A DNA stretch of 64,000 nt from Chlorobiota bacterium. Lineage in GTDB: Bacteria; Bacteroidota; Ignavibacteria; OLB7. The position numbers and the translations under genes were made by a program. The stretch is taken from the NCBI GenBank assembly GCA_028287785.1, contig JAQBOZ010000012.1, positions 1 to 64,000 of the forward strand, read 5' to 3'. Below, piece by piece: positions 1 through 6,870 of the stretch; the first letter of the stretch is position 1; each line of letters opens with the position of its first letter. Below the pieces are notes generated by a model. That model saw only the letters and a program-made list of their open reading frames with translations. It was not told the origin of the DNA and did no database searches.

Positions 1-161
1 CGACGACGGCACTGAGCGCGGACGCGAGCGGCGACGGGACCAACAGCGACGGGCTTGGGCAGGTGTATCTCTGGATCGGCGGCTCGGTCAGCCCGACGGC
101 GACGCAGCAGCGCGGGAACTACACCGGTACCTTTACCGTCAGTGCGGCATATTCTAACTAA
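1..161 (+). CDS. DUF4402-like exported subunit, C-terminal part
   Basis: The window opens inside this gene. The frame starting at base 3 runs to TAA at 159-161 and gives about 52 residues ending in NYTGTFTVSAAYSN. The ending, with a preceding stretch GGSVSPTATQQRG, matches the end of the protein at 1126-1620 (GGSVTASSTQQRGDYSG), so the two are paralogues. This beta-strand ending is typical of the DUF4402 family, small exported proteins that resemble archaic (spore-coat-U-like) pilins. The next gene is a PapD-like chaperone and the locus continues to an usher-like protein, so a fibre subunit role is likely. The N-terminus and signal peptide lie outside the window. Confidence 0.7.
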   Translation, partial: TTALSADASGDGTNSDGLGQVYLWIGGSVSPTATQQRGNYTGTFTVSAAYSN

Positions 162-249
162 CTTGCGGTCAGTGGGTCTGCAATCCCGCCGGAAGAGCGA
201 TCAACGTCCAGTTCGCTGAGAGTTCCGGCAGGTAGTCATCTCAACAACA

Positions 250-1110
250 ATGAACAGCACGTTTCTTTTCCGGTGCATCCTGATGGTGCTCCTCATCGCG
301 GGGACATCCATCGCGGCCAGGGCACAGATCGAAGTCTCCCCCACTCGCGTCCTCCTCAGCATGCGGGAGCGCTCCAGGGAGGTCAATGTCCTGAACACTA
401 CCGATAATCAGTCCGAGGTGGAGGTGGAGCTTGGCTACAAACTCTTCCGGTACGATTCAATCGGGGCGATTACGCTCGACTCGGCGCGGACGGAACTGGA
501 GCATGCGAAGTCGGGGAAGGAATGGCTGAAGATCTATCCGAAGCGATTTTCGCTTCCGCCGCATGGATCGCGGCTGGTCAGGGTGATGGTGACGATCCCC
601 GACAGCGCGGCCGAAGGGGAATACTGGGGTCGCGTGGTGGTTACGAGCACGCCGGTGGCCCGTGTCAACGCCGACGACACCACATCGGGCATCCAGACGA
701 ACCTGATGATGCGCCTCCAGGTCGATCTGCCGGTCATCATACGGAAGGGCGCCCCCGGAACGGGAATTGAATTCGACGCCATGCGTGGGATGGCGCGGGC
801 CGATGAGACGCTCTTTCTGCTGGACATGCACCGGACCGGCAACGCCGCCTACCGCGGAACGATCCGCGCGGCGCTCACCGGCGGAGGGACGGAGATTGCG
901 AAGGTGGAGGAGCAGTACACGGCCGAGTTCGCATACCGGCAGGCGCTCCACTTTCCGAAGCTCAAGGACGGAGGGTATAGACTGGCGGTCGAATCGGTCA
1001 GCGTCAAGAAAGGCGGGGCCAACGATGCGGTGATCCAGTCCCCCACGGTCTCGAAGAACTATGGCGTCACGGTTTCCGGCGGGAACGTGACGATCGTCCC
1101 CAGCAATTAA
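250..1110 (+). CDS. PapD-like periplasmic chaperone
   Basis: 286 residues. Residues 1-26 form a signal peptide ending in ARAQ. The mature protein begins IEVSPTRVLLSMRE, the first strand of a PapD-type immunoglobulin fold, with the conserved P-T-R whose Arg contacts the subunit C-terminus in fimbrial chaperones. Later strands (RFSLPPHGSRLVRVMV near residues 98-113) match the F-G region of that fold. Length is a little above the usual 230-250. In chaperone-usher systems such proteins hold pilus subunits in the periplasm by donating a strand. Genes for DUF4402-like subunits lie on both sides and an usher-like barrel follows, which supports that role here. No clear ribosome binding site precedes the ATG. 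Confidence 0.8.
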   Translation: MNSTFLFRCILMVLLIAGTSIAARAQIEVSPTRVLLSMRERSREVNVLNTTDNQSEVEVELGYKLFRYDSIGAITLDSARTELEHAKSGKEWLKIYPKRFSLPPHGSRLVRVMVTIPDSAAEGEYWGRVVVTSTPVARVNADDTTSGIQTNLMMRLQVDLPVIIRKGAPGTGIEFDAMRGMARADETLFLLDMHRTGNAAYRGTIRAALTGGGTEIAKVEEQYTAEFAYRQALHFPKLKDGGYRLAVESVSVKKGGANDAVIQSPTVSKNYGVTVSGGNVTIVPSN

Positions 1111-1125
1111 CAGCCCGGCGCCGAC

Positions 1126-1620
1126 ATGATATCGAACATCACATCACATTTCCGCTTCGCGATTCCGGCAAGAATCGCCGGCCTGCTGGCGCTGCTGATG
1201 ATGACGTTCGGCTCCGCGAAGGCGCAACTGGTGTTCGGCACGCAGTCGATCGCTTTCGGCAGCCTCAACAGGGCGGGAAGGTCCACTGTTCTTTACAGCG
1301 ACGCGGGATCGGCCCAGTTTTCGGTGATCGCGCGCTCCGGCAAGAAGACCCGGCTCACGGTCAGCTCCGCATCGCTCACGCGAAGCACGCGCACGCTTCC
1401 GATCACGATCAACACGGTGGACTGCGCCTTCAGCACCGACGGCGGCACAACCTGGACGGTCTTCTCGACCGGCACGCTCTTCCATGACGTGACCCCGCCG
1501 AACGGCCCGTTCAACCTGGGAACGATTCTGGTCAAGGTCGGCGGATCGGTCACGGCCAGCTCCACGCAGCAGCGCGGCGATTACTCCGGCTCCGTCACGC
1601 TTACGGCGGTGTATCGATAG
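1126..1620 (+). CDS. DUF4402-like exported subunit
   Basis: 164 residues with a signal peptide (about 1-34, ending in SAKAQ). The mature part starts LVFGTQSIAFGSLN and ends SGSVTLTAVYR, the beginning and end expected for DUF4402 domains. The rest is rich in Ser/Thr/Gly with alternating hydrophobic residues, which suggests an all-beta fold. It begins 15 bases after the chaperone gene and is a paralogue of the truncated protein at the window start, so the three are probably cotranscribed. Likely role: structural subunit of a surface fibre or a related exported beta protein. The family assignment is by motif; the pilin role is inferred from context. Confidence 0.75.
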   Translation: MISNITSHFRFAIPARIAGLLALLMMTFGSAKAQLVFGTQSIAFGSLNRAGRSTVLYSDAGSAQFSVIARSGKKTRLTVSSASLTRSTRTLPITINTVDCAFSTDGGTTWTVFSTGTLFHDVTPPNGPFNLGTILVKVGGSVTASSTQQRGDYSGSVTLTAVYR

Positions 1621-1974
1621 CGGGCGCAAAAAAGTCTTTCATGCGCGGATAATCCCCGCCCATGAAGCTCACTGAAGTTTTCCTTCCCTGCCCGGCGCCA
1701 TTGCTGCCTGGCAGTCTCCGTTTCCCGGCCTGCGTCCAGCACGGCCGATTGAAATGAGCCATATACTCCGATCGATCCTCCGGCCCCTGGTCAGGGCATG
1801 TATTCGCGGAAACCCAGGCGGATGTACGGAAACCGGATCGTGTACGGAAGCAGGTCACTCATCGCGACCCGAAAACCAGATTTTTAAGGGATTTTCGAAG
1901 ATTTTCCGCGTGGCATGTTCTTGATGGCAAGGTCTGTCAGACAGAATGATTCAACGCTTTTCCTACGTCCAGAA
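1621..1974. other. intergenic region before the usher-like gene
   Basis: About 350 bases separate the subunit gene from the likely usher start. The stretch at 1878-1905 is T-rich and could hold a promoter. I see no RNA gene, and no open frame with protein-like composition. Confidence 0.4.
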
Positions 1975-4605
1975 ATGATCAACAGCTCGCTCTCCTTCCG
2001 GTCGCTCATGATGCTCCTTCTCCTCGGGGGATTGGGCATTGTGATGTCCGGTCGCGCCATTGCGGGAGGCGGCGGAACCGACCAGCCGAAAGAGAGCGAG
2101 ATCATCGATATCGAGACCCTTTCTCCCTCCGAGGATGGCCCGGTGCGGGTCGATATCCCGGGGATTGCATCGAACGATCTTGGGGCGCGCTATGCCGGTG
2201 ACAGTCTCTTCCTCCCGTTTCTCGCGTTCTGCGACATGCTCCGCATCAGGACCGCCGTCTCGGACGATCGGATGACGCTGAGCGGCGAGAATATCTCCGG
2301 AGCGCCGTTCGAGATCGCGCGCAGGACCAGCATGGTCACGATCGGCGACAGGAGCATCGCGTTCCCCGGTTCATCGATACGGGTTGTGGCGGGGGAGATC
2401 TACATCGAGTCATCGCTTCTCAGCGCGACGATCGGCATCATCAGCAACTACGATCCCGCGTTTCTGAAGCTGACCATCTCCGCCGACGAGAAGCTCCCGG
2501 TGGTACAGCTTGTCCGCCGGAACGGGCACTACGGCGCGCTGGTGACAACCACCGGCGACGATGCCACGACGCAGGAGGCGAGCCTTGAGCGCGCGATCTT
2601 CAGCGCCCCGGTGATCAGCTGGCAGCTTACGAACTCCCTCAACGCGGGAATGCGGCAGTCGTACGGTGGTTTCCTGCGGCTTGGACAGGAGTTCCTCTTC
2701 GGCATCCTCGATGTCTCCGCCGTCGGCGGTTATCAGACGAACGTTCCCGGCAACCCCTTCACCGCGCGCATCGACGCGGCAAGCTGGCGCTATCAGCTCC
2801 CCGGATCATCGCTTCTCAGCCAGATCACGCTCGGCAGCATGGAGATCGCGCAGAAGCGGGTCCAGGGAATCGATCTGACCAATGTCCCGCTCACCCCGCG
2901 CGAGGGCTTCGGCACATACGATCTTCAGGGACGGACGCAGCCGACCTGGACGGTGGAACTGTACGATGGCGCCCGGCTGGTGGATGTAACGCAGGCGGAC
3001 GGCGACGGCCGCTATCATTTCCCGATCCGGACCGGCTACGGCACGGTGGACAGGACGACCAGGGAGATCGGCCCGCACGGCGAGATCGTGATGCAGAACC
3101 ATCGCGTGCAGCTCGACGCCACGATGCTCCCGGCCGGTGAGTTCGACTACGAGATCGGCGCGGGGATCGACAGCCTGAAGACCACTTCCATGATGAACGG
3201 GCGCGGCCATCTGGCGATCGGGCTGTTCGACCGCCTGACGGTTGGCGCCGACGCGCAGTACGGCGCAAGGAAGATCAACGAATGGAATCGCGACAGCCTG
3301 GACGCCACCCCGTTTGCCTCGCTCTGGATGGGAAGCGCCACATCGTTCAATGTTCGTTACGGGGTTCGCTCCAGGACATTCGGCGGAAGCCTTTCGACGA
3401 TACTTCCGAACAACGCAACGGTTCGCCTCGGCATCGACTCTCTCTCGATCGGCAACCGGAGCGGCTCCGGCACATTCGCGGGCACATTGCCGATCGGCGC
3501 CATCACCATCGGCGCAACCGGCGGCTATGACAAACGGTCGTTCGGGGATCGGTTGACAGTCGAGCCGCAGTTTTCAGGATATGTCGAGGGGATCAACTTC
3601 ATGGGGTCCACGCGATACACCCTCGTCAGGGAGAACGTCTCCGGGGCCGACGAGCTGACCGCCCCCGCCACGGCGACGCGGAGCCTTACAAGCGATCTGC
3701 GCCTGATGATCACCCCGGCAACCGGCCTCCTCCTCTCCGCCGACGCCCGTTACGATCACAATGTCAACAGGATCTCATCGCTCGACTTCTCCACGTATTA
3801 TCGCCTGACCGACGAGCTGGGGATCAACCTGAGCTACTCCGTTCCCGAGTTGGACTGGAAGCACGGCTCCGTTCAGGCGCAGTTGAGCATCGATCTGAAC
3901 GCGGTCCGCGTCTCCACCACGGCCGGCTACACGGGGAACGGCGTGACGAACAATTCCTTCGCGCAGGGAAGCCTGATCATCTCGCCGAGCGGCATCAAGG
4001 CGTTCAACACCACATCGGTCGGCGAATCGGCGATCATCATCCTTGCATTCAACGACCGGAACGGCAACGGCATCCGCGATAACGGCGAGGAGACGATGGC
4101 CGCCCCGCAGACGCGCATTTCATACCCCAACTCGCAGATGATCTCGGAGGATGGCACCTTTCACTCGCTCCCGGCCAACCGGAGTTGCGCCGTGGATATC
4201 GATCGGTGGCTCTACGCGAACGACAATCTCTTCCCGGCCCGCTCCCATTTCCTGATCTACACGCAGCCGAGCGGCCTGGAAGTGATTGAAATCCCGTTCT
4301 CGCAGGGCTACGATGTCACCGGCGCAACGCAGCCCGCAGGAGTCGCCGGCCTGATTCACGGCCTCCGTCTCCAGCTCATTTCCAGCACAACCGGCGCGGC
4401 ATACGACGGCGAGATCTTCTCCGACGGCACGATCTTCTTTGCCGGCGTGGGAACAGGCCAGTACCGCATCGTCTTCGACGACGAGCAGCTCACCGCGCGC
4501 CATCTCGCCGTAACGATCCCTTCCGGGCCGGTAACCATCACCGCGACGGAGCATCACCTGCCGACTGTGGAGTTTCGCAGGGTTGATGATGGGCGGGGAA
4601 AATGA
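1975..4605 (+). CDS. fimbrial-usher-like outer-membrane barrel protein
   Basis: 876 residues from ATG 1975, chosen because it gives a proper signal peptide (MINSSLSFRSLMMLLLLGG...); an upstream in-frame ATG at 1915 would add 20 residues with no signal character. After the signal peptide comes a region resembling copper-amine-oxidase-N-like folds (FLPFLAFCDMLRI, then a second half). A long run of amphipathic strands follows, interrupted by a plug-like segment (VELYDGARLVDVTQADGDGR, then IGPHGEIV) that resembles the first strands and plug of fimbrial ushers. Near the C-terminus is an SdrD-type acidic loop (FNDRNGNGIRDNGEE) and a carboxypeptidase-regulatory-like beta domain. Ushers form the outer-membrane pore that assembles chaperone-delivered subunits, and the neighbouring chaperone and subunit genes fit. 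The match to classical FimD is remote, so it may belong to a distinct usher branch. Confidence 0.6.
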   Translation: MINSSLSFRSLMMLLLLGGLGIVMSGRAIAGGGGTDQPKESEIIDIETLSPSEDGPVRVDIPGIASNDLGARYAGDSLFLPFLAFCDMLRIRTAVSDDRMTLSGENISGAPFEIARRTSMVTIGDRSIAFPGSSIRVVAGEIYIESSLLSATIGIISNYDPAFLKLTISADEKLPVVQLVRRNGHYGALVTTTGDDATTQEASLERAIFSAPVISWQLTNSLNAGMRQSYGGFLRLGQEFLFGILDVSAVGGYQTNVPGNPFTARIDAASWRYQLPGSSLLSQITLGSMEIAQKRVQGIDLTNVPLTPREGFGTYDLQGRTQPTWTVELYDGARLVDVTQADGDGRYHFPIRTGYGTVDRTTREIGPHGEIVMQNHRVQLDATMLPAGEFDYEIGAGIDSLKTTSMMNGRGHLAIGLFDRLTVGADAQYGARKINEWNRDSLDATPFASLWMGSATSFNVRYGVRSRTFGGSLSTILPNNATVRLGIDSLSIGNRSGSGTFAGTLPIGAITIGATGGYDKRSFGDRLTVEPQFSGYVEGINFMGSTRYTLVRENVSGADELTAPATATRSLTSDLRLMITPATGLLLSADARYDHNVNRISSLDFSTYYRLTDELGINLSYSVPELDWKHGSVQAQLSIDLNAVRVSTTAGYTGNGVTNNSFAQGSLIISPSGIKAFNTTSVGESAIIILAFNDRNGNGIRDNGEETMAAPQTRISYPNSQMISEDGTFHSLPANRSCAVDIDRWLYANDNLFPARSHFLIYTQPSGLEVIEIPFSQGYDVTGATQPAGVAGLIHGLRLQLISSTTGAAYDGEIFSDGTIFFAGVGTGQYRIVFDDEQLTARHLAVTIPSGPVTITATEHHLPTVEFRRVDDGRGK

Positions 4606-4801: not shown

Positions 4802-5089
4802 ATGAACCTTACACCGCTTCATGACCGGGTAATCGTAAAGCCGGCAGCCGCAGAAGAGATGACCAAGGGTGGCCTTATCATCCCCGATACCGTCAAGGAA
4901 AAGCCGCAGCGTGGCGAGATAATGGCAATCGGCAGCGGCAAAGTTTCCGAGGATGGCAAAACCACCCCGCTCAGCGTCAAGGTTGGCGACAACGTTCTGT
5001 ACGGCAAATATTCCGGAACCGAGGTCTCGGTGGATGGCACTGACTATCTGATCATGCGCGAATCCGACATCTTCGCGATCTACCAGTAG
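4802..5089 (+). CDS. groES: co-chaperonin GroES
   Basis: 95 residues, the usual GroES length. It begins [14 protein letters not shown], and carries the mobile-loop region ([16 protein letters not shown]) and the roof/core strands ending in [12 protein letters not shown]. GroES forms the seven-subunit lid of GroEL and closes the folding chamber in the cytoplasm. A ribosome binding site AGGAG (4790-4794) lies 7 bases before the ATG. The gene follows the CIRCE-controlled promoter and precedes groEL, so it is the first gene of a heat-shock operon. Confidence 0.98.
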
Positions 5090-5170
5090 GGGACGGTTTA
5101 AAACCGTTCTTTATCAGGGGGGACGGTTTAAAACCATTCTTTATCAGGGGACGGTTTAAAACCGTCCCCT
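5089..5170. repeat. three-unit palindromic repeat array in the groES-groEL gap
   Basis: Three tandem units start at 5089, 5117 and 5147. Each has the core ACGGTTTAAAACC preceded by a run of G, and the first two end in CTTTATCA. The third unit is a near-perfect palindrome (arms of 11 bases around one A). The first unit begins in the last base of the groES stop codon. In the mRNA each unit can fold as a hairpin and might adjust groES/groEL ratios or RNA stability. Related palindromes with other arm sequences lie at 26169-26197 and 32383-32425. Confidence 0.9.
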
Positions 5171-5181
5171 ACTAGATCTGA

Positions 5182-6870
<1,689 letters not shown>

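Follow-up and report, generated by a model that had tools for sequence, protein, structure and literature searches.

The classical chaperone-usher pathways, represented by the type 1 pilus (FimA/C/D) and the P pilus (PapA/D/C), are encoded by sets of subunit, chaperone and usher genes. The ushers FimD and PapC possess 24 barrel strands with a plug inserted after strand 6, and classical pilins end in a motif of glycine at position -14 and a penultimate tyrosine. Subunits of the superfamily have an incomplete Ig fold and, where they polymerise, an N-terminal donor extension. The usher sequence comprises an N-terminal domain (NTD), a pore, a plug contained within the pore sequence and two C-terminal domains, CTD1 and CTD2 (PMC3960871). 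Archaic (sigma) systems such as Csu and CupE, which are widely spread outside the Gammaproteobacteria, have been placed in Proteobacteria, Cyanobacteria and Deinococcota (PMC4654587, PMC10104325). A third, alternative class includes Ecp/Mat and CFA/I. In the Bacteroidota, Cytophaga hutchinsonii has been stated to be without chaperone-usher genes (PMC7906972). The present analysis concerns four adjacent genes at positions 1-4605 of a stretch of 64,000 nucleotides from a Chlorobiota bacterium (GCA_028287785.1, contig JAQBOZ010000012.1, here C9), called the window. An earlier note, made from the letters alone, had fitted them to a chaperone-usher pathway. Very probably, they encode a fibre assembly system of the chaperone-usher type that belongs to a remote branch and uses DUF4402 proteins as subunits. 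The computed evidence consists of the gene set, its order and conservation, the predicted usher fold, the homology of the chaperone, a pilin-like C-terminal signature and the co-occurrence of the genes.

Predicted fold of the large protein

The largest of the four genes encodes an usher, as judged by predicted fold. An AlphaFold2 model, calculated with 28 relatives, reached a mean pLDDT of 69 and a pTM of 0.52. DSSP assigned to it an N-terminal domain, 6 strands, an inserted six-strand sandwich, another 18 strands (24 in total) and two C-terminal beta-domains. The features of an usher, a 24-strand barrel with a plug after strand 6, an N-terminal and two C-terminal domains, are thus all found in a predicted structure of moderate confidence, in the same layout as in the classical ushers. 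In a Foldseek search of the PDB, FimD and PapC entries filled ranks 1-19 (E 6.9e-25 to 3e-8), and ZnuD was the first non-usher (E 1e-5). VIA-align placed usher entries at ranks 1-15 (Z 15.9-18.4), with FimD at Z 18.4 and an rmsd of 7.8 over 537 residues, and gave other barrels a Z of 13.6 at most. Large barrels are alike, which keeps this margin modest; weight is therefore given to the ranking of the hits, to the domain inserted in the barrel and to the additional domains. The alignments to FimD extend to residue 888. A comparison of the family alignment with seven E. coli K-12 ushers by hhalign yielded 88% (E 3e-6, 530 columns) and laid plug on plug, while a TonB receptor used as control obtained 0.1%. 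The barrel with plug proposed in the earlier note thus reappears as 6 + 18 strands around an inserted beta-sandwich, with FimD and PapC as the top 19 structural matches. Two refuting outcomes had been set beforehand, a model lacking barrel or plug and profile hits to unrelated families only; neither occurred.

Sequence profiles gave little. The protein shares about 12% identity with FimD and, unlike the classical ushers, is undetected by Pfam Usher (PF00577), which has no match anywhere in the window genome at E<=10 and matches 1 of 29 family members (E 5e-4). Sequence matching to Pfam, NCBIfam and the PDB did not identify the large protein as an usher, NCBIfam returned nothing for the window proteins, and the usher, chaperone and subunit profiles found nothing relevant among PDB sequences.

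That the large protein is a different kind of outer-membrane barrel, resembling LptD or a porin, and neighbours the DUF4402 genes by chance is very improbable. A match to LptD was obtained at 16 bits, below the cut-off of 22.4, and an identity as LptD was rejected on this ground. Strand patterns are common to large barrels, and the modest VIA margin also fits such a protein. In Foldseek, however, FimD and PapC rank above every other barrel, mostly by at least 10 orders of magnitude in E. The inserted sandwich and the two C-terminal domains of the model likewise argue for an usher, as does the strict co-occurrence with DUF4402.

The C-terminal region resembles SdrD and carboxypeptidase regulatory domains, which distinguishes it from the classical ushers. 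Both resemblances had been read from the window protein itself. The SdrD-type segment occurs in 28/29 family members at E<=0.1; it scores below threshold (14.5 bits) in the window protein, where the SdrD-like DRNGNGIRDNGEE segment lies within the C-terminal domains (4024..4602). CarboxypepD_reg is present in 24/29 members and without match in the window protein. A copper-amine-oxidase-like N-terminus, also suggested earlier, was rejected as unreliable (1/29 members, E 0.08). In addition, a SPOR (peptidoglycan-binding) domain was observed in 11/29 family ushers, C-terminal in those inspected. The ushers L014, L015, L035 and L059 and the stretch L132:8448-9083 belong to this observation, and in a Pseudoalteromonas operon the usher is followed by a separate SPOR protein. 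With such a domain, the usher might be located at the division septum or the poles.

Chaperone and DUF4402 subunits

The PapD-like nature of the chaperone, also claimed earlier, is supported. Its PapD_N match, at 23.0 bits (E 8e-5), equals the curated cut-off, and this profile is found in 17/21 members of the chaperone family at E<=0.1. An hhalign comparison with the fimbrial chaperones of E. coli K-12 reached 92.5%. Thr32-Arg33 aligns with the Thr-Arg of the first strand of FimC, a feature shared with the classical pathway, and Pro97 aligns with a FimC proline. Arg33 is invariant in the 21 chaperone sequences. Residues 148-162, approximately, alternate in hydrophobicity ahead of Arg165 and are proposed as the donor strand G1. 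A PapD-like periplasmic chaperone encoded beside an usher, the mark of the superfamily, is thus present. The relatives carry an arginine in a GEYR segment, near the position of the anchor arginine (F1 strand) of archaic and alternative chaperones. In the archaic class, the F1 arginine acts together with a tyrosine and an arginine of domain 2. Archaic and alternative chaperones anchor via another arginine, and the archaic ones are without that of the first strand (PMC4654587). The family seems to mix classical with archaic or alternative anchor signatures.

The locus might instead belong, as a diverged member, to the archaic (Csu/CupE) or the alternative (Ecp/CFA) class, both of them already widespread, and would then form no separate branch. 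This is somewhat unlikely. It would account for the match of EcpC to the usher alignment, which reached 63% in hhalign over the C-terminal half of the usher, a likeness to the alternative pathway, and for the GEYR arginine with its anchoring role (PMC4654587). The small operon of few subunits, chaperone and usher is a property of archaic systems as well, and so is the wide spread outside the Gammaproteobacteria. In contrast to both classes, the subunits are DUF4402 proteins: no match to the SCPU subunit domain of archaic systems was found in the window genome or among the DUF4402 subunits, and no tip protein of the EcpD kind is encoded at the window locus. The first-strand arginine is conserved here, whereas it is reported absent in archaic chaperones (PMC4654587). 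Moreover, the classical K-12 match (88%) is not weaker than that of EcpC, in a comparison of seven sequences with one that holds no archaic usher. Because its subunits are of a family other than SCPU and its usher is missed by the Usher profile, the remote system is regarded here as a variant of the chaperone-usher pathway.

Both window subunits proposed in the earlier note exceed the Pfam cut-off of PF14352 (DUF4402; 25.2 bits), with 27.5 and 36.5 bits. DUF4402 proteins carry signal peptides and a C-terminal strand. They fall into an A type and a B type, the latter encoded next to the usher in the window. Tyrosine occupies position -2 in 22/26 A-type rows, together with glycine at -14, or at -16 with a two-residue insertion; the A subunits of the window genome are one residue longer. 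Glycine at -14 was found in 15/16 B subunits, and the window B subunit has both residues. The ten K-12 pilins compared have Gly -14 in 10/10 and Tyr -2 in 9/10 cases, so glycine and, in A subunits, tyrosine are shared with the classical pathway.

The N-termini differ in length. Ahead of a conserved FG, A subunits mostly have 24-32 residues and B subunits 18-24, counts that derive from automatic cleavage-site guesses with several rows unread. The window B subunit has about 10 residues ahead of its second FG. The classical tip adhesin is without an N-terminal extension (PMC3960871). Because of this and the shorter N-terminus, B is proposed as a tip or specialised subunit.

Locus, paralogues and distribution

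The coordinates are listed in Table 1. All four genes are located on the + strand, in the order DUF4402 3' end, PapD-like chaperone, second DUF4402 gene and 896-codon outer-membrane protein.

Table 1. Features of the chaperone-usher-type locus and of its usher-like protein in the window.
Feature	Positions	Strand	Basis
DUF4402 A-type subunit gene, 3' end, proposed shaft	1..164	+	PF14352 27.5 bits; 5' part beyond contig end
PapD-like periplasmic chaperone, 286 aa, signal peptide	250..1110	+	PapD_N at cut-off; hhalign 92.5%
DUF4402 B-type subunit, 164 aa, proposed tip/specialised	1126..1620	+	PF14352 36.5 bits; C-terminal signature; N-terminal comparison
Usher-like outer-membrane assembly platform, 896 codons	1915..4605	+	AlphaFold2 model; Foldseek and VIA-align FimD/PapC matches; hhalign 88%
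Usher, predicted periplasmic N-terminal domain, residues 73-190	2131..2484	+	secondary structure; block pLDDT mostly 70-87
Usher, predicted barrel strands 1-6, residues 233-322	2611..2880	+	DSSP on model
Usher, predicted inserted six-strand plug-like sandwich, residues 334-399	2914..3111	+	DSSP; block pLDDT low, 54-62; hhalign plug on plug
Usher, predicted remaining 18 barrel strands, residues 410-690	3142..3984	+	DSSP on model
Usher, predicted two C-terminal beta-domains, residues 704-896, CTD1/CTD2 position	4024..4602	+	model; VIA alignments to FimD

The usher may also start at 1975 (876 aa); its signal peptide is then directly N-terminal, as in a paralogue on contig C11. The first DUF4402 frame comprises 3-161 plus stop, the 3' end only with 52 codons, and has been cut by the assembly, because base 1 of the window is base 1 of contig C9. 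A gap of 294 bases (1621-1914) separates subunit B from the usher; the same two genes touch in the C11 paralogue. The gap contains TGTACGGAAACCGG, which recurs upstream of a DUF4402 fragment on contig C27, and no terminator-like site was found there. GroES and GroEL are encoded downstream at 4802-6870, outside the fibre locus.

Contig C11 carries a complete paralogous locus (L009), its genes arranged as in the window: DUF4402 A, chaperone, DUF4402 B and large protein. The identities between window and paralogue amount to about 46% for the chaperone and about 37% for the large protein, and the window A-subunit fragment shares 73% identity with residues 155-206 of the A subunit encoded in full on C11. 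DUF4402 3' ends also open contig C30 and close contig C25; they are identical to each other over 120 bases and 93% identical to C9 over this length. Contig C27 begins inside a DUF4402 5' end. The multi-copy DUF4402 gene broke the assembly. The upstream subunit searched for as missing is therefore not absent: an A-type gene is present, cut at the assembly repeat, and a complete A-type gene is found on C11. The copies at contig ends have nearly the same 3' ends and unassembled middles, which suggests that subunit genes were recently duplicated or underwent gene conversion. In the window genome (G000), DUF4402 genes away from any usher were observed at the C25 end, the C30 start, the C27 start, C35:64923-65438 and C10:3830-4390.

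In a survey of 296 Bacteroidota genomes, the usher was detected in 62, a chaperone match in 79 and DUF4402 in 47. All 47 DUF4402 genomes also have the usher (Fisher p 8e-42) and 59/62 usher genomes the chaperone (Fisher p 8e-41), both p values being inflated by the treatment of related genomes as independent. The co-occurrence of the three spans several families of Bacteroidota. At 62/71 usher places, a chaperone is encoded at most 8 kb upstream on the same strand. A scan of genome contigs revealed 107 related stretches. The 80 retained come mainly from Bacteroidales and Chitinophagaceae, with one Ignavibacteria record. The earlier fit of the four genes to a chaperone-usher pathway stands, with the frames confirmed. 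The gene set is not a product of chance, because its order recurs in the full paralogue and across Bacteroidota.

The same operon was found in a plasmid collection, on plasmid 2 of Polaromonas sp. JS666 and on a plasmid of Pseudoalteromonas xiamenensis, with DUF4402 genes, a PapD-like chaperone and an usher-like gene in that order. The Polaromonas usher aligns with the usher family at 99.9% in hhalign. These operons differ in their hosts, which are Pseudomonadota, and in an usher annotated just as carboxypeptidase regulatory-like domain protein; that of Pseudoalteromonas adds separate SPOR proteins. The distinct branch suspected earlier is thus remote, but not peculiar to this organism, being widespread in Bacteroidota and present in Pseudomonadota. 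Two loci of other families of the phylum encode a 630-690-aa protein with FliG-like C-terminal domains directly after the usher, at L151:13502-15571 and L152:11012-12895. In genome G044, chaperone and usher are located near the ends of two contigs, C31 and C65, which are probably one locus split by the assembly.

Most Bacteroidia loci have the order DUF4402 A, chaperone, large gene, DUF4402 B and usher; in the clearest case, L034, the intergenic gaps do not exceed about 60 bases. The large gene that immediately precedes B matches TIGR04183, the type A sorting domain of the type IX secretion system (T9SS), in 49/50 and PF18962 in 46/50 cases. The count was made on the last 110 residues at E<=0.01 and omits six short open reading frames upstream of subunit B (96-199 aa), judged spurious. 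The 49/50 are not 49 independent cases, because many loci are close relatives (28 groups at 60% usher identity). Some of the giant T9SS-tailed proteins carry lectin-like, glycine-rich or PKD-like stretches. L152, from another family, has a 1548-aa invasin-domain protein with a T9SS tail upstream of its DUF4402 genes. The window genome itself contains 150 T9SS sorting-domain matches, most above the curated cut-off, in agreement with the earlier description of a T9SS-bearing bacterium. A sorting-domain gene inside the operon is absent at both of its loci, as far as assembled. The operon structure points to a functional partnership of the T9SS protein with the chaperone-usher operon. Doubtfully, the Bacteroidia operon may even specify a composite organelle, in which the chaperone-usher fibre and a giant T9SS-exported adhesin are assembled together, with B connecting them; the window locus, which has no giant, would then represent a reduced form.

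Proposed working and meaning

Some results weigh against a chaperone-usher fibre system. The usher model is of moderate confidence (pLDDT 69, pTM 0.52). No match to a known usher NTD was obtained for its N-terminal domain, the aligned VIA ranges beginning at residue 213 at the earliest. The position of the second anchor of classical chaperones, a lysine of the G1 strand, is occupied by the invariant Pro161 in the chaperone alignment, a difference from the classical pathway. Most B subunits have glutamine, not tyrosine, at -2. The DUF4402 subunits are, unlike classical ones, not FimA-like by profile (10.7% against FimA-type pilins, not significant), and the AlphaFold2 model of DUF4402 B is of low confidence (pLDDT 53). 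The pilin identity consequently rests on context and C-terminal signature. The Fisher p values are inflated, and polymerisation and surface fibres are, like strand donation and exchange, subunit roles and adhesion, what we infer from these data.

In the proposed working, Sec would export the DUF4402 subunits to the periplasm, where the PapD-like chaperone would cap each subunit by donating its G1 strand, and the C-terminus of the subunit would be anchored near Arg33. Chaperone-subunit complexes would dock at the N-terminal domain of the usher, and the plug would move. Donor-strand exchange would link the subunits, which would pass through the 24-strand pore to form a linear fibre on the surface. 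The shaft would consist of A-type subunits, which have the N-terminal extension; the B-type subunit, whose gene neighbours that of the usher and whose N-terminus is shorter, would serve as tip or specialised subunit.

An assembly of the DUF4402 proteins into a thin coat or a short surface decoration, in place of adhesive fibres, is unlikely. Caf1 and Myxococcus Mcu are chaperone-usher systems whose products form capsule-like or spore-coat layers, and these precedents support a coat, as do the one or few small subunits per locus and the lack of a recognisable adhesin at the window locus. On the other hand, A subunits with an extension beside a shorter B resemble a set of shaft and tip, and relatives add the giant surface protein.

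No mention of DUF4402 was found in the open-access papers searched. Titles and abstracts among these papers described no chaperone-usher system in Bacteroidetes/Bacteroidota, Chitinophaga or Flavobacter, and an earlier description is possible. The best reading is a remote, unannotated chaperone-usher branch that is widespread in Bacteroidota, where the pathway is usually not listed. A function is thereby proposed for DUF4402, a family without known function, and chaperone-usher assembly would be extended to a phylum absent from the lists of reviews (PMC4654587, PMC10104325). Many proteins named solely for a carboxypeptidase-like domain are probable ushers. Pili are predicted in soil Chitinophaga and environmental Bacteroidales, and a link between chaperone-usher assembly and type IX secretion becomes directly testable.

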